This document shows, piece after piece, positions 58,379 through 64,000 of a stretch of DNA of 64,000 nt. The position numbers were made by a program, and so were the translations under genes. How positions within the stretch are numbered: the first letter of the stretch is position 1; every line of letters starts with the position of its first letter. The notes under the pieces are model-generated. The model made no database searches, was not told the origin of the DNA, and saw nothing but the letters and a program-made list of their open reading frames with translations. The DNA is taken from NCBI RefSeq assembly GCF_000621805.1, contig NZ_JHXH01000002.1:1-64000 (forward strand), given 5' to 3'. The DNA is from Ruminococcus sp. FC2018. Lineage in GTDB: Bacteria; Bacillota; Clostridia; Oscillospirales; Ruminococcaceae.

Positions 58379-59095
58379 ATGAGAGACTGTGACAAGAAAA
58401 CAAAGACAGACAGAACAAACCCCAAGCTGGTAGTTTCACTGTGCTCAGGGTTTGTTGCACTTGCAATGCTCACAGGGGTCGCAGTGTTCACCGCATCAGC
58501 TTCCGGAGTTTCACAAAACCGTCCCAAGACGGTGAAAGCTGCCGAGGTGACGCAGTCACAGTCAGATTACCGGGATATCCTGCTGGCACAGCAAAGGTCA
58601 GATAATATGACAAAGGTCAAGTCTTCCGGGTCCGGCACTCAGCTGGCAGCAGGTGCTCAGGACAGCAGAAAAACCGCTGACAGCAGTTCGCAAGACGAAG
58701 CGTACAAAAGAAATTATATATACTACGTTCCGGCACAAGCCCACAAAACAGTAAAAAACAAAGAGGATCTTACAGGCAGATATATTGAAAAAGAAAACAA
58801 GAACATTCAGATAGAATTTTCAAAGAATGACAATAAGTCCTACCGCTGCGTGGTAACTAAGGATGAGTCGGAAAAAGGAAAGGCAGTATACGAATTTATA
58901 TGCACCACAGGTGATTCATATCTGACATATACAGGCGGTATCAGGTACCGTATCACTCAGAACGCTGTAACAAAGGCTCTTGAGAAGAAACAAGAGAGCA
59001 AGGATCATTGCGGAAAGATCTATCTCAGCGAGTCGGGACTTACCTGGACCGACAGCGACGGATCCCACGGAACTTTCACACAGATCACGGACTAA
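58379..59095 (+). CDS. Exported hypothetical protein
   Basis: 238 residues. Basic N-terminus (RDCDKKTKTDRTNPK), a signal or anchor segment (about 17-41, LVVSLCSGFVALAMLTGVAVFTASA), a Ser/Gln-rich linker, and a C-terminal domain (about 130-238) with short strands: LTGRYIEKENKNIQIEFSK, SYRCVVTKDESEKGKAVYEF and IYLSESGLTWTDSDGSHGTFTQI, resembling small beta-barrel domains that end exported proteins. Cleavage after ASA is plausible. No family recognised. AAAAAGGAGGGAAGCTGA precedes ATG; a terminator follows. Confidence 0.8.
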   Translation: MRDCDKKTKTDRTNPKLVVSLCSGFVALAMLTGVAVFTASASGVSQNRPKTVKAAEVTQSQSDYRDILLAQQRSDNMTKVKSSGSGTQLAAGAQDSRKTADSSSQDEAYKRNYIYYVPAQAHKTVKNKEDLTGRYIEKENKNIQIEFSKNDNKSYRCVVTKDESEKGKAVYEFICTTGDSYLTYTGGIRYRITQNAVTKALEKKQESKDHCGKIYLSESGLTWTDSDGSHGTFTQITD

Positions 59096-59147
59096 GCCCA
59101 AAATTCCCCCCAAAGGAATTTTCCATATATTCTCTCCCCCTTTTCAG

Positions 59148-59179
59148 ACGCTCGTAATAATACGGGCGTTATTTTTTTT
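59148..59179 (+). terminator. Terminator of exported protein gene
   Basis: ACGCTCGT / ACGGGCGT hairpin (one T.G pair) followed by TATTTTTTTT. Confidence 0.85.
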
Positions 59180-59254
59180 GAAAAAAGCGGTATTTAAACT
59201 TGGTTTTAAGCAGGCAGATTATACTGTGTTCAGAAAAAGAAAGAGGGTGACAAA

Positions 59255-60523
59255 ATGTTCGTAAAAAAAACAAGACTTCTGGTAGCTGTTCTTGCCATTT
59301 GTATGCTGGCAGCAGGCTGTGCGGATTCCTCCGGCTCATCGTCGCAGGACTTGTCCGAGGCGGGACAGGAAAGCTCCGTTTCCGTATCGGCTGACAGCGA
59401 GGGATCGTCCGAGGGCGACAGCAGCTCGCAGAAGGAAAAAAAGTCAAAGAGCAAAACAGACAGCTCGGCAGGCTCTGATGATACCTCTGCGGATACCTCC
59501 ACAGGAGCAAGTGAAAAGAGCAGGAGCAAAAAGGACAGCTCACAAAGCTCAGGGGATAACAGCGGTTCTTCCTCCACAGGGAAAAAGTCCAAAAAGAGCA
59601 AAAAGAGCAAGACCGAAAGCGGCTCTGACAGCAGCTCAGGTTCGTCGGAGAAAAAGTCAAAGAGCAAATCCTCGGCGGACAGCTCAAAAGGAAGTAACGA
59701 CAGCGCTTCTGCCACATCGGGCAGCGGCGCTTCCGCTTCTTCAAAAAAGAGCCGATCAAAGGTGAAAAAATCAAAGAGCACCTCAAGTGAAAGTGCTTCG
59801 GATACACAAAAAAGCAAGTCTGCAAAGACAAAGTCACAAAGCTCGTCAACCACTTCGGACAGCACCGTGAGCAGTGCTCAGTCATCTCAGGACAGCAGCA
59901 CTCAGACGATGACGGATACCGCAGCGGAAGCTCAGACTGACCTGAGTGTGCAGACACCGGTCGAGACGGAGCAGGATCAAAGCGCACAGGAAACCTCGCC
60001 AAGCGAGCAGACACAGGAAAATACCGCTGATATTGAAGCTGACGGCGAAAATGAGCAGACAGACCAGAATGAACAGCAGGAGCAGACCACGGACGAAAAT
60101 ATAAATGGATCCGAGGACACAGAAAGCGTGCAGCAGCCTGCTGACGCTGAAAACATACAGGACGAGGACCCGTCGCCGCAGGAGCAGACATCTGATACCG
60201 AAAACGAAGAAGAGGGCGGTGAAAATGAGCAGACAGACCAGAATGAACAGCAGGAGCAGACCACGGACGAAAATATAAATGGATCCGAGGACACAGAAAG
60301 CGTGCAGCAGCCTGCCGACGCTGAAAACATACAGGACGAGGACCCATCGCCGCAGGAGCAGACATCTGATACCGAAAACGAAGAAGAGGGCGGCGAAAAT
60401 GAGCAAACAGACCAAGAACAGCAGCAGGATCTGACCACGGACGAAAACAGCGATGAAGCCGAGAGCACCGGCAGCGAGCAGCAGGAGGATCAGGACACAC
60501 AGGATACACCGACAAAAACATAG
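59255..60523 (+). CDS. Ser/Lys/Asp-rich lipoprotein with 58-residue tandem repeats
   Basis: 422 residues. Lipoprotein signal LLVAVLAICMLAAGC (lipobox LAAGC), then a Ser/Lys/Asp-rich low-complexity region (about 25-215) with repeated KSKKSKKSK-like blocks, and an acidic Gln/Glu/Thr-rich region. Residues 265-380 are two tandem copies of a 58-residue unit, with a partial third. No globular domain can be seen, so it is likely a flexible, charged rod on the outer face, perhaps a spacer, an adhesin stalk or a wall-associated polymer. AAAGAGGGTGACAAA precedes ATG. Strong codon repetition makes it prone to length change. Confidence 0.8.
   Translation: MFVKKTRLLVAVLAICMLAAGCADSSGSSSQDLSEAGQESSVSVSADSEGSSEGDSSSQKEKKSKSKTDSSAGSDDTSADTSTGASEKSRSKKDSSQSSGDNSGSSSTGKKSKKSKKSKTESGSDSSSGSSEKKSKSKSSADSSKGSNDSASATSGSGASASSKKSRSKVKKSKSTSSESASDTQKSKSAKTKSQSSSTTSDSTVSSAQSSQDSSTQTMTDTAAEAQTDLSVQTPVETEQDQSAQETSPSEQTQENTADIEADGENEQTDQNEQQEQTTDENINGSEDTESVQQPADAENIQDEDPSPQEQTSDTENEEEGGENEQTDQNEQQEQTTDENINGSEDTESVQQPADAENIQDEDPSPQEQTSDTENEEEGGENEQTDQEQQQDLTTDENSDEAESTGSEQQEDQDTQDTPTKT
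60047..60450 (+). repeat. 174-bp tandem repeat inside the lipoprotein gene
   Basis: Unit 1 at 60047-60220, unit 2 at 60221-60394, both 174 bases and almost identical, then a diverging partial unit from 60395. 174 is divisible by three, so gain or loss of a unit keeps the frame. Confidence 0.9.
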
Positions 60524-60536
60524 TAAAATAACAACA

Positions 60537-60569
60537 GCCCGATGACCGTCAAGGTACATCGGGCGTTTT
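60537..60569. terminator. Bidirectional terminator
   Basis: GCCCGATG / CATCGGGC hairpin between the convergent lipoprotein genes, with GTTTTG on the right and an A/C-rich left side. Confidence 0.7.
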
Positions 60570-60580
60570 GCTGCATCTTG

Positions 60581-61237
60581 TTATTTTATTCCGTAGGTGG
60601 TGTTGTAATCGGCGACTCTGAAGGTAACAGGGAATTGTGTGCTTCCCACGGTGGAAAGCTTGACGGTGAAGATAAAGCCGTCCTTTTTGCCGTTAAAGAA
60701 CCTTGCCGAGCCTTTCCCGAAAGCAGGCACATTTTCCTCCAGTTTGTTCTCAGCCGGCAGCTTTTCTTTCAAGCATTTGATAAGCGCCTGTGAAACTGCG
60801 GTGGGCTCCACCTTATCGTCGTCATCACCGATAGAGTAATATATTCCTCCGAGCTTGCCGTCCTCCTTGTAGGAAAGGATCACCTTTACACTTGCCTCTC
60901 CGCCCAGCTTGACTCTGCCGGCAAAGACCTCCGACCTTTTGCCCAGGTCAAAGGTGAACTGTCCGCTGTAGTCTTCCACAGCATTTTTGTTGTCAAAAGC
61001 ACCGTTTGTCTTTGCGCTCACCTCATCGGCGGTAAGACCTATGAACTGTGTGCTGCCCTCTCCCATAAAAGCACCAAGAAAATCAGCCTCTTCAACTACC
61101 TTGCCCTTTTCCGCATTGCTTGAGGATGAGGACAATGTCACCTTTTCTCCCTCTGTCCTTGAAGAGCTGTCGCCGCAGGACGCAAATGCACTCAGGGCAA
61201 CAACAGCTGATAAAACAGCAATAACTATTTTTTTCAC
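60581..61237 (-). CDS. Lipoprotein of unknown function
   Basis: 218 residues from a GTG at 61237 with AAGGGGGAG seven bases ahead; the longer frame to 61324 covers the promoter. Lipoprotein signal (KKIVIAVLSAVVALSAFASC), a Ser-rich linker and a domain of about 160 residues with strand-rich pattern: TAD.VSAKTNGAFDNKN, GQFTFDLGKRSEVFAGRVKLGGEASVKVILSYKEDGKLGGIYYSIGDD and a C-terminal FTVKLSTVGSTQFPVTFRVADY. No family recognised. Opposite in direction to the PP2C gene, sharing a control region with it. Confidence 0.8.
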   Translation of the reverse strand: MKKIVIAVLSAVVALSAFASCGDSSSRTEGEKVTLSSSSSNAEKGKVVEEADFLGAFMGEGSTQFIGLTADEVSAKTNGAFDNKNAVEDYSGQFTFDLGKRSEVFAGRVKLGGEASVKVILSYKEDGKLGGIYYSIGDDDDKVEPTAVSQALIKCLKEKLPAENKLEENVPAFGKGSARFFNGKKDGFIFTVKLSTVGSTQFPVTFRVADYNTTYGIK

Positions 61238-61317: not shown

Positions 61318-61346
61318 TTGACAATCAAAGGGTATAAGTGTATAAT
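61318..61346 (+). promoter_or_regulatory. Promoter of PP2C - kinase operon
   Basis: TTGACA, 17-bp spacer ending in GTG, TATAAT, about 40 bases ahead of the PP2C ATG. Confidence 0.85.
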
Positions 61347-61384: not shown

Positions 61385-62101
61385 ATGGAGTATTTTTATA
61401 AGGCGTATTCCCACACAGGAAACAGAGATAAAAATGAGGACAGCTTTTCCCTGCGCCAAGGGGAAGGCGTACTTTGTGCCGCCCTTGCAGACGGCATGGG
61501 CGGATTCGGAGGGGGAGAGATAGCCTCCCAAACGGTGATACAAGCCTTTGAGCAGGCGTTTGACCTTGACCCTATGACCCAGCCCTGCCGGATCGTTTTA
61601 AATGCCAATGAGATGATACTTCAAAAGCAAAAAGAGCTTGGAAATAAAATGAAGACCACCGCAGCGGTGGTGAGGATAGATGCCCAAGGGGCACATATAG
61701 CCCATGTGGGAGACAGCAGGGTGTATGCCTTCAAAAACGGCAGGATAGTGATGCGGACCGTTGACCACAGCGCAGCCCAGATGAGCGTGGACGTGGGGGA
61801 GATAACTGCCGATGAGATACGAACCCACCCGGACAGATGCGTGCTTACCAAAGCGCTTGGCTCATCCCGGGAGCTCAGACCTGCACAGGCGCAGCTTCCT
61901 GCGGACAGCTTTGACTGTATGCTCATATGCTCCGACGGGTTCTGGGGGAGCGTTACGGAAAGTGAAATGTGCCTGTGCCTTGCCCAAAGCCAAACCCCCG
62001 GGCAGTGGCTTGAGCTTATGCAGAGCGTAAGGCAGAACAATATCTCACAGGATGATGATAACAATACGGCGATTGCCATAATGAAACAAAGGGAGGGATA
62101 A
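61385..62101 (+). CDS. PP2C-type protein phosphatase
   Basis: Removes phosphate from Ser/Thr residues, Mn/Mg-dependent, cytosolic. 238 residues. Motifs: RDKNEDSF with Glu18-Asp19, ALADGMGGFGGGEIAS with Asp36-Gly37, THVGDS-type AHVGDSRVYAF with Asp110, LICSDGFW with Asp184, and DDDNNTAIAI at the end. All metal-binding acids are there. Slightly short beside PrpC/Stp (about 245). CGAGGTAGGCA precedes ATG. The kinase gene begins three bases after its stop, so kinase and phosphatase form one operon, the common bacterial pairing. Confidence 0.93.
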   Translation: MEYFYKAYSHTGNRDKNEDSFSLRQGEGVLCAALADGMGGFGGGEIASQTVIQAFEQAFDLDPMTQPCRIVLNANEMILQKQKELGNKMKTTAAVVRIDAQGAHIAHVGDSRVYAFKNGRIVMRTVDHSAAQMSVDVGEITADEIRTHPDRCVLTKALGSSRELRPAQAQLPADSFDCMLICSDGFWGSVTESEMCLCLAQSQTPGQWLELMQSVRQNNISQDDDNNTAIAIMKQREG

Positions 62102-62104
62102 GCG

Positions 62105-64000
62105 ATGCTGTGTATGTACTGTATGAAGGATATGGAGCAGACTGCACAGGTGTGCCCGCATTGCGGCAGCAGCAGGAGCTATTCGGTGCCTCCCCACAGA
62201 CTTATCCCGGGTACAATGCTTGCCCAAAGATATATCGTGGGCGTGGCAAAGGGCGAGGGCGGCTTCGGTATAACCTATGCAGGCAAGGATACACGCCTTG
62301 ACAGGATAGTTGCTGTAAAGGAATATTTCCCCTCGGGACTTGTGAACAGAAATGCCACAGTCTCTCCCGTGGTGACAAGGACAACGGAGGAAAACGGCGC
62401 TGATGCCTTTGAAAGGGGCAGAGAAAGATTCCTTAACGAGGCAAAGACCCTTGCTAAATTTTCCGGGGAACTGGGCGTTGTACATATCCTTGACTTCTTT
62501 GAGGAAAATGATACCGCATACATAGTTATGGAATACCTTGACGGAATGAGTCTGGGGGAGTACCTTAAAGTCAACGGCACAATGACAGCGGCGGACACGA
62601 TAACCATACTTATGCCCGTTATGCTGTCCTTGAAAAAGATACACAAGCAGGGACTTATCCACAGGGATATAAGCCCGTCAAACATAATGGTGCTTAAAAA
62701 CACCGTCAAGCTCATAGATTTCGGTGCGGCAAGACACGCCACAGGAAGCGGCAACAAGAGCATTTCGCTTATGCTCAAGCCCGGCTATGCCCCCGAGGAG
62801 CAGTACCGCAGCAAGGGAGTTCAGGGTCCCTGGACAGATGTTTATGCCCTTTGCGCCACCATTTACAAGTGCATTACAGGCGTTACTCCCGACGAGGCAA
62901 ATGACAGACTGCACTGTGATGAGTTAAAGACACCGTCACAGCTTGGAATAAACGTTGCTCCGTCCTTTGAAGCTGCGCTTATGAAGGGTATGAGCGTCCT
63001 GCAGCAGGACAGGTATCAGACTGTGGATGAGCTGCTTGAGGCTCTTACCGGCTTTGAAATATCCGACGACCCCAAGACGCTTGTGGGAGCTTCCGCAGGC
63101 AAAAAGGCATATGACCCCGAGGACGATAACCGCACCACCATGGTCTCTCAGCTTTCAAGCGAGGACAATGTTACACGCTTTGTCCCAAGGGAGCAGGCAG
63201 TGCAGCAGCAGGCTTACAGAGCACCTGTGCAGCCGCCGCAGTTTGCCCCCGAGCCGTCCTTCCCCGGAGCTGTGCAGGGATTTGCCCCCGGCAAGGAAAA
63301 CTCCGAGCTGGATAACAAGGTTGCCGACAGGATAAAAAAGCGCAGGCAGAAAAAGGCGCTTATGGCGTTTTTTATCATACTGCTGATAGTTATAATTGCG
63401 CTGGTGGTAATGGTGCTGGTGAAAAACTCCTCGGGCAAAACGGGAGGCTCTGACAGCAGCGGAAAGACGGTTACAAACAAAGACGGCGTTGCCATTACAA
63501 ACAGCAAGGTGGATATGGACCTGGAGTCAAGGTACGTGAACTTCTATAAAACAGCCGTTACCGTGGACAGCATAAAGGAAGTCAAAAACAACAGCAGCAT
63601 ACAAAGCATCTATATAAGTCAGTGCGAGGTCACCCAGGGTGCTATTGACGAGATAGGAGAGCTGGGGGATAGGATAAAGACACTGAGCATTGAGGAGAGC
63701 AAGGGCTTTGATGACCTTACCCCTGTTTCAAAGCTCACCAATCTTTACAGCCTTTCCATAAAAATGTGCGGACTGAAAAACGACGACTTCAAAAAGATAG
63801 ACACAAGCGCAATGAAGGGACTGGGATATGTTGACCTTACAGGCAACCCGGACCTTTCGGACATAAGCTTTTTGAAGGGCGGAGAAAAATCAATATATAC
63901 CCTGGGCATATCCTACACCGCCGTAAGCGACCTTTCTCAGATATCCGGCTTTGAAAAGCTCAGCAGGCTCACTGCGGAAAAGTGCAGGATATCCGATATA
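62105..64000 (+). CDS. Zinc-ribbon Ser/Thr protein kinase with membrane helix and leucine-rich repeats, partial
   Basis: 632 residues are visible and the frame is still open at the right edge. N-terminal zinc ribbon (Cys3, Cys6, Cys17, Cys20), kinase domain (about 43-315) with glycine loop GEGGFGITY, Lys72 (VAVKEYF), HRDISPSN (Asp188, Asn193), DFG at 205-207 and APEEQY. A Pro/Gln-rich linker follows, then one membrane helix (about 418-439) and an exported part with Ser/Gly linker and leucine-rich repeats from about 480 (DLTPVSKLTNLYSLSIKMCGL, MKGLGYVDLTGNPDLSDISFL). In place of PASTA domains the outer sensor is an LRR. The ATG stands three bases after the PP2C stop. Confidence 0.92.
   Translation, partial: MLCMYCMKDMEQTAQVCPHCGSSRSYSVPPHRLIPGTMLAQRYIVGVAKGEGGFGITYAGKDTRLDRIVAVKEYFPSGLVNRNATVSPVVTRTTEENGADAFERGRERFLNEAKTLAKFSGELGVVHILDFFEENDTAYIVMEYLDGMSLGEYLKVNGTMTAADTITILMPVMLSLKKIHKQGLIHRDISPSNIMVLKNTVKLIDFGAARHATGSGNKSISLMLKPGYAPEEQYRSKGVQGPWTDVYALCATIYKCITGVTPDEANDRLHCDELKTPSQLGINVAPSFEAALMKGMSVLQQDRYQTVDELLEALTGFEISDDPKTLVGASAGKKAYDPEDDNRTTMVSQLSSEDNVTRFVPREQAVQQQAYRAPVQPPQFAPEPSFPGAVQGFAPGKENSELDNKVADRIKKRRQKKALMAFFIILLIVIIALVVMVLVKNSSGKTGGSDSSGKTVTNKDGVAITNSKVDMDLESRYVNFYKTAVTVDSIKEVKNNSSIQSIYISQCEVTQGAIDEIGELGDRIKTLSIEESKGFDDLTPVSKLTNLYSLSIKMCGLKNDDFKKIDTSAMKGLGYVDLTGNPDLSDISFLKGGEKSIYTLGISYTAVSDLSQISGFEKLSRLTAEKCRISDI

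Follow-up and report, generated by a model that had tools for sequence, protein, structure and literature searches.

The window, by which we mean the whole 64,000-base stretch of Ruminococcus sp. FC2018 DNA that was analysed (positions 1 to 64,000 of a contig 240,537 bases long; genome 2.4 Mb), ends inside the gene for a membrane serine/threonine kinase (STK) whose outer domain is built of leucine-rich repeats (LRRs). Read on past the window edge, the locus holds four genes on one strand: a PP2C-type phosphatase, the LRR kinase, the ATPase of an ATP-binding cassette (ABC) transporter with two FHA domains (FHA-FHA-ABC, or FHA-ABC for short), and a separate permease. We propose that these genes encode an outside-to-export-pump device, in which the LRR receptor kinase probably gates the ABC exporter. 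The features of the locus are these:

61318..61346, + strand: sigma-A type promoter, TTGACA-17-TATAAT, 12/12 consensus matches (promoter scan, consensus match only)
61385..62101, + strand: PP2C-type Ser/Thr phosphatase, 238 amino acids (Pfam PP2C_2 1.4e-11, conserved motifs, locus conservation)
62105..64966, + strand, beyond the window edge at 64000: LRR receptor-type Ser/Thr kinase, 953 amino acids (genome sequence)
62111..62164, + strand: CxxC...CxxC zinc-ribbon motif of the kinase, residues 3-20
62252..62908, + strand: kinase catalytic domain, residues 50-268 (Pfam Pkinase)
63173..63175, + strand: codon of T357, proposed autophosphorylated FHA docking site (linker alignment; putative function)
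63356..63427, + strand: predicted membrane helix, residues 418-441 (hydrophobic stretch, by sequence reading)
63674..64000, + strand: first part of the LRR ectodomain, whose units run from residue 524 to about 905 (64819, past the window)
64994-66472, same strand as the kinase, beyond the window: ABC ATPase with two FHA domains, 492 amino acids
66485-67282, same strand as the kinase, beyond the window: ABC-2 type permease, 265 amino acids
67384-68073 (L002:6384-7073), same strand as the kinase: one-helix protein, 229 amino acids (no Pfam match above cut-off)

The phosphatase, kinase, ATPase and permease genes likely form an operon, as their order and the short gaps between them (3, 27 and 12 bp) indicate. 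Between the end of the promoter listed above and the PP2C start lie 38 bases. Because 18 promoter-like sites were found in the 8 kb scanned, against 10.6 in shuffles, only this one, the single 12/12 site among them, was used in the analysis. At 0.48 to 0.50, the G+C content of the operon is inside the range of its surroundings (0.43 to 0.51), no RNA element reached the gathering score in the 9 kb scanned, and among the NCBIfam matches listed for the eight proteins tested (25 of 193 for the ABC ATPase) none reached its cut-off.

How constant is this arrangement? The genus set comprises 29 genomes, several of which are incompletely assembled, and a gene that seems absent may in some cases fall in a gap. 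The FHA-ABC ATPase has matches in 18 of the 29 at 1e-40; nine of these are full-length at >=70% identity, and the other nine cover the ATPase part only (residue 225 on). The kinase is matched through its ectodomain in the same nine genomes as the full-length FHA-ABC, and through the kinase domain alone in three further ones; neither a full-length LRR kinase nor an FHA-FHA-ABC orthologue was found in the other 20 genomes. Their co-occurrence gives a Fisher value of 1e-7, uncorrected for kinship. In all nine genus loci the order PP2C, LRR kinase, FHA-FHA-ABC, permease is kept. The first-pass annotation had described the PP2C gene as standing in an operon with the kinase and had let its receptor idea depend on homologues occurring with PP2C; a listing of genomic neighbours bears this out, with PP2C directly upstream of the kinase in 9/9 genus loci. 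The most constant partners of the kinase, however, are the FHA-FHA-ABC ATPase and the permease, which lie past the window edge and were absent from that annotation.

In wider draws, which included the window's own genome, only the best 3 to 7 first-look candidates per genome were scored, and the counts are therefore lower bounds. The FHA-ABC query matches at least 9 of 197 genomes in the family draw at 1e-30 (three over the ATPase part only), at least 3 of 394 in the order draw at 1e-70, at least 4 of 391 in the class draw at 1e-75 and at least 1 of 398 in the phylum draw at 1e-75. The trio of LRR kinase, FHA-FHA-ABC and permease genes recurs side by side in L080, which belongs to a different family within the order, and in L087. 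By their record titles, relatives of the kinase come from uncultured Ruminococcus and other Clostridia, largely in ruminant gut samples; NCBI assigns uncultured Ruminococcus sp. to Oscillospiraceae (Bacillota). We also note that one genome, G222, encodes two additional FHA-ABCs (37 to 38% identity) and, besides its LRR operon, holds two more kinase/FHA-FHA-ABC/permease/PP2C clusters with another kinase type (L077, L078). At L020 (genome G055), FHA-FHA-ABC, permease, PP2C and a kinase-like gene are followed by a small gene that looks WXG100-like by eye.

Both enzymes of the operon retain their characteristic residues. In the kinase (Pfam Pkinase 4.5e-31; LRR_4 1.3e-27 over 9 stretches), K72, H186-R187-D188, N193, D205-F206-G207 and A229-P230-E231 are invariant in 10 orthologues. 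In the phosphatase, D36-G37, G109-D110-S111-R112, D184-G185 and D225-N226, which we take to be the metal-site motifs, are invariant in 10 aligned PP2Cs. The zinc ribbon claimed for the kinase N-terminus stands at the level of a motif: C3, C6, C17 and C20 are invariant in the 10 orthologues, but Pfam Zn_Ribbon_1 (E 0.074) stays under its cut-off. A KKRRQKK patch precedes the hydrophobic stretch 418-441 and would thus place the catalytic domain inside and the LRRs on the outer side of a single predicted helix, the topology of an LRR receptor kinase. The nearest solved kinase domain is that of PpkA (5hnv, 3e-47), with PknB behind it at 7e-25.

The first-pass annotation, which saw only the start of the ectodomain, held that the receptor idea would weaken if the full gene showed no further repeats. 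Read to 64966, the gene encodes about 17 LRR units (marked by eye) between residue 524 and about residue 905, after which come a short conserved cap containing DCPLDK and a charged tail. The assignment is not a chance one, since the ectodomain used as a query finds internalin A as the closest solved LRR structure (PDB, 7e-45), and the ectodomain appears to be an LRR of the internalin class. In the window's own genome LRR_4, the only LRR family searched (E 0.001), is found in this kinase alone. Conservation is higher in the C-terminal half and the cap than in the N-terminal half, and the cap residues 905-925 reach a mean identity of 0.86 in 9 rows. A cap motif, D.PLD[KR], is present in 12 LRR kinases (nine from the genus loci, together with L080, L087 and L088) and in 0 of 6 others examined, so that at least two kinds of LRR ectodomain exist by sequence. 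The cap-type group was defined after a quick tree and before a careful one (see below).

In the ATPase, two FHA stretches (Pfam FHA 5e-25) lie N-terminal to the ABC_tran domain (1.6e-25). The G-R, S..H and N-G residues of both FHA domains are kept in 13/13 sequences, and the Walker and signature stretches are kept in the alignment of FHA-ABCs; we take the former to be phosphopeptide-binding residues and the latter to be ATPase motifs. This ABC is the sole FHA protein found in its own genome (E 0.001), and the same is true in 6 of the 9 operon genomes.

What could the FHA domains recognize? The kinase linker (residues 317-417) is poorly conserved, with a mean pairwise identity of 0.35 over 10 orthologues, and its only invariant residues are T357, K416 and K417; T357 is never serine. 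The threonine stands in the context TRFV in the window kinase and T-[RQS]-x-[VAI] in 10/10 orthologues, and the longer pattern [ED]D..T..[VIA] occurs in 9 of the 10 linkers, against a shuffled mean of 0.04 rows, although the rows are kin. FHA I of Rv1747 recognizes the sequence pTRVV of Rv2623 (excerpts of PMC5549992). Because T357 is invariant and TRFV resembles pTRVV, we infer that T357 may be autophosphorylated and so recruit the FHA-ABC. Across the linkers of zinc-ribbon kinases, Thr-Val/Ile occurs at 84 sites against 31.2 in shuffles (standard deviation 5.0), and Ser-Val/Ile shows no enrichment (39 against 35.8, standard deviation 5.5), as FHA readers would predict. As a separate observation, the zinc-ribbon kinase linkers of L094, L101 and L145 carry repeated Thr-Val motifs (four GEETVF units in L101), which looks like a set of docking sites on a single kinase.

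The zinc-ribbon kinases as a group were examined through loci fetched with the kinase alignment, the best 80 of 574 confirmed and hence a biased set, with neighbours counted within 6 kb and their domains called with profiles built from window and locus sequences, not Pfam. PP2C lies near the kinase in 35 of the 80 loci, any FHA protein in 32 and FHA-ABC in 12, and all 12 FHA-ABC loci have a permease. Only three of the 12 kinases bear an LRR ectodomain, two of these being copies of genus loci counted already. Seven of the nine non-LRR loci were scanned with Pfam (L107 and L144 were left out): the kinase beside FHA-ABC carries PASTA and SH3_3 in L116 and L133, PASTA in L152, an F5/8 type C domain in L118 and NPCBM in L097, and in L138 and L145 Pfam gave no named ectodomain. 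By regular-expression count, which rather than Pfam also defines the LRR label in the locus count and the quick tree, 6 of the 79 kinases read have LRR ectodomains; no ectodomain was found in L110, L126 or L157, and L139 was dropped, no reading frame having been assigned. On the quick tree, built from 99 kinase domains, 7 changes are needed to explain the LRR label, against 15.8 in shuffles, and at least 4 are forced by well-supported branches. The careful tree uses 41 rows chosen from the 99, without the LRR kinases L072 and L075, the two of L083 and the second of L140. It rejects one clade of cap-type LRR kinases (approximately unbiased test, p-AU 0.02) and one clade of these with L095 and L140 (p-AU 2e-51). 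Excluded from the quick tree were L085, L086 and L128, which are copies of L072, L076 and L081 (L085 is the G216 locus and L086 the G221 locus), and rows with <250 kinase-domain residues, among them L082.

Since the LRR kinases do not form one clade and varied ectodomains stand beside FHA-ABC, ectodomains appear to have moved between kinase domains. The first-pass annotation had supposed that the PASTA domains of a PrkC-like kinase were exchanged for LRRs. An exchange is well supported within the zinc-ribbon kinase family; that the window kinase is the genome's own PrkC with its PASTA domains replaced was rejected, since elsewhere (L004) the genome retains an intact canonical PASTA kinase accompanied by a PP2C of its own. 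A zinc-ribbon kinase that has a PASTA ectodomain (PASTA 6e-13) also lies in this genome, at L007 (contig C1 near 200873); its catalytic motifs are HRG and TGFC, and it is probably a pseudokinase and sister of the window kinase. The putative outputs vary as well. At L088:8116-8958 the gene for a TIR-FHA protein (TIR_2 6e-18, FHA 8e-18) is flanked on one side by a second LRR kinase and on the other by a second ABC, a C39-peptidase ABC exporter and an HlyD-like protein; when three further loci arranged in much the same way were scanned, L100 and L109 gave TIR-FHA and L120 FHA only. We tentatively suggest, as a possibility somewhat short of even, that gut Clostridia possess modular receptor kinases, in which a chassis of zinc-ribbon kinase, PP2C and FHA output would carry exchangeable ectodomains (LRR for a host, feed or neighbour protein or glycan; PASTA, F5/8 type C, NPCBM) and exchangeable outputs (FHA-FHA-ABC, TIR-FHA) recruited to an autophosphorylated linker threonine.

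For the window operon we propose the following sequence of events. First, the LRR ectodomain would bind an extracytoplasmic ligand. Second, binding would alter the association of the kinase in the membrane and thereby increase autophosphorylation, including that of T357. Both FHA domains of the ABC ATPase could then dock on phosphorylated T357, and the kinase would phosphorylate or allosterically switch the ATPase, which together with the separate permease would export its cargo. Finally, PP2C would reset both kinase and transporter. The observed basis of this receptor-exporter proposal is the gene order, the domains, the conserved residues, the co-occurrence of kinase and FHA-ABC, T357 and the exchange of ectodomains.

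Several observations weigh against this proposal. Concave LRR positions, where a ligand might be expected to leave its mark, show no higher conservation than convex positions (p 0.253 with 9 rows and 0.41 with 10; p 0.097 for the C-terminal units alone). FHA1 matches the Rv1747 structures weakly (6cah E 0.0096, 6ccd E 0.013) and no better than other FHA domains. Across 74 kinases, linker Thr-Val/Ile is not commoner near an FHA gene (<=6 kb), being present in 16 of 30 with such a gene and 32 of 44 without; this speaks against a simple linker-FHA rule, unless the readers sit elsewhere in the genomes. The L087 linker lacks T-R-x-V by eye though FHA-ABC adjoins, and a second cap-type LRR kinase of the same genus (L171, at L088 on contig C5 of G215) adjoins the TIR-FHA protein rather than an FHA-ABC, in surroundings that include C39-type exporters. 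Finally, PP2C was not seen in L080 or L087, where it cannot be judged because the L080 contig ends just past the permease and the L087 contig starts just before the kinase.

The alternative that survives best, which we nevertheless consider unlikely, is that the LRR is a structural or adhesive ectodomain that holds the kinase at the envelope or clusters it there, through peptidoglycan, an S-layer or a partner such as the 229-residue protein, and that the kinase reports the state of the envelope. The lack of excess concave conservation is what such a role would allow, and the strongly conserved D.PLD[KR] cap could be a protein-protein site. PASTA, SH3_3, F5/8 type C or NPCBM domains, kinds often tied to wall or glycan binding, are found on sister kinases that share the chassis. 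Members of the 229-residue one-helix family lie 3' of the permease in 5 of the 9 loci (L002, L069, L070, L073, L075; 1 to 3 copies), and in Serratia the periplasmic protein RtkS binds and stabilizes PpkA (excerpts of PMC6082577). By analogy, the 229-residue protein and the lipoprotein encoded at 60581-61237 may be helpers as RtkS is for PpkA, though not obligatory ones. Against a structural role, the 229-residue family was not found in 4 of the 9 loci and so is not an obligatory neighbour, and the concave positions show higher conservation in the C-terminal units, from residue 684 on, than in the N-terminal units (p 0.0007, in a split made post hoc).

It is improbable, in our view, that the kinase acts on many cell proteins, for example in division or the envelope, with FHA-ABC merely one neighbour among them and PP2C a general Stp. 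Several membrane STKs have several substrates each (excerpts of PMC6213207), and the failure of the linker motif to track FHA genes agrees with such breadth. The genome, however, already holds a PASTA kinase with its own PP2C, the LRR kinase and FHA-ABC keep company in the same nine genomes, and no other FHA protein was found in the window's genome.

The first-pass annotation had further suggested that three exported proteins of unknown function at 58379-61237 could be ligands or substrates of the kinase. Their N-terminal export signals are seen by eye, but the nearest (60581-61237) is on the strand opposite to PP2C. That any of them is a ligand or substrate is hardly credible: although the gene of a 60581-type lipoprotein is oriented divergently from the operon in 5 of 9 loci, homologues of the 58379 type are found near the operon in 4 of 9 (two matches weak or short) and of the 59255 type in 3 of 9 (the other two hold the N-terminal part only), own locus included in each count; the three are thus patchy, and they are poorly conserved, outside the transcription unit and without family matches, none reaching a Pfam cut-off or an NCBIfam match at 0.001. 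Within the gene at 59255-60523, which encodes a lipoprotein rich in Ser/Lys and Glu/Gln, we note a 174-base tandem repeat at 60043-60447 (2.3 copies, 95% matches).

On the 3' side, the gene of the 229-residue protein is preceded by its own 10/12 promoter match. Beyond it an RsbW-like ATPase (HATPase_c_2 8e-21) is encoded at L002:7461-7916 (contig C2 68461-68916) and adjoins the operon in L069 and L070 too; a partner switch close to PP2C could matter. Two other identities for the locus were rejected. A mobile element found no support in G+C content or in searches of phage, plasmid and viral-contig records: phage records gave no match to the kinase at 1e-30; 35 plasmid records match it, each covering no more than 80% of the query, and the 10 matches listed span residues 2-338 at most; and of 32 pattern matches in viral contigs none was confirmed to encode the ectodomain. 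As for a defence system, the PADLOC matches resemble generic kinase and ATPase similarity.

How does the operon compare with known systems? PknF-Rv1747 of M. tuberculosis is likewise an operon, of two genes, one for an STK and the other for an ABC exporter that bears two FHA domains, and the Rv1747 subclass resembles White (both from excerpts of PMC3908365). TIGR00955, the pigment precursor permease model, is the top NCBIfam match of both the ATPase and the permease, though far under its cut-off, and this White/ABCG-type likeness hints weakly at a hydrophobic cargo. The window operon differs from PknF-Rv1747 in its separate permease gene (ATPase and permease are fused in the relatives L024, L025, L026 and L152), its LRR ectodomain, the PP2C in the cluster and an FHA similarity that is weak (E about 0.01). 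In the type VI threonine phosphorylation pathway PpkA-PppA-Fha, source of the nearest kinase domain, a kinase, a PP2C and an FHA protein (PMC6082577, in excerpt) that binds phosphothreonine (PMC3953482, in excerpt) form a set switching a transport machine. Here, the FHA domains are on an ABC ATPase and the kinase has an LRR ectodomain; no type VI protein was present among nine proteins scanned around the operon, the rest of the contig and genome not having been searched for one. Thus, we set the operon apart from both systems because it has no fused permease and, as far as scanned, no type VI cluster.

Other likenesses are more partial. The PASTA kinases PrkC, StkP and PknB are also membrane STKs adjoining PP2C, but no PASTA domain is among the Pfam matches of the window kinase up to E 1, and the NCBIfam PASTA-kinase model gives 173 against a cut-off of 450 bits. 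With internalins the kinase shares its class of LRR and not its mode of attachment, a membrane anchor via the kinase; the NCBIfam internalin models stay under their cut-offs (internalin_A 127/1600 bits, inl_like_NEAT_1 115/1275, internalin_H 92/1050). STPKLRR of Vibrio splendidus is also a bacterial kinase with LRRs, but it is a type III secreted effector with LRRs at 35-168 before the kinase domain at 203-403, and the word transmembrane does not occur in the main text of its report (PMC10237653). Nor do the terms leucine-rich and LRR occur in the main text of a review of STKs (PMC6213207). Each part of the operon is known; the combination of a transmembrane LRR kinase, a phosphatase and an FHA-ABC exporter was not found among the papers listed by searches of the openly licensed literature, the largest of which listed papers on plants, and this is not proof of absence.

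Finally, the LRR receptor-like kinases of plants also place LRRs outside and a Ser/Thr kinase inside, joined by one helix. This is analogy, not kinship, and the polarity is opposite: the plant receptors have the LRR N-terminal and the kinase C-terminal, whereas the window kinase is of type II, with its kinase N-terminal and its LRR C-terminal. If our proposal is correct, it makes the clear prediction that phosphorylated T357 binds the FHA domains, and would explain by what means a receptor kinase in bacteria singles out a particular transporter. Furthermore, if ectodomain and output have both been exchanged in evolution, signal specificity could be studied by comparing natural variants.

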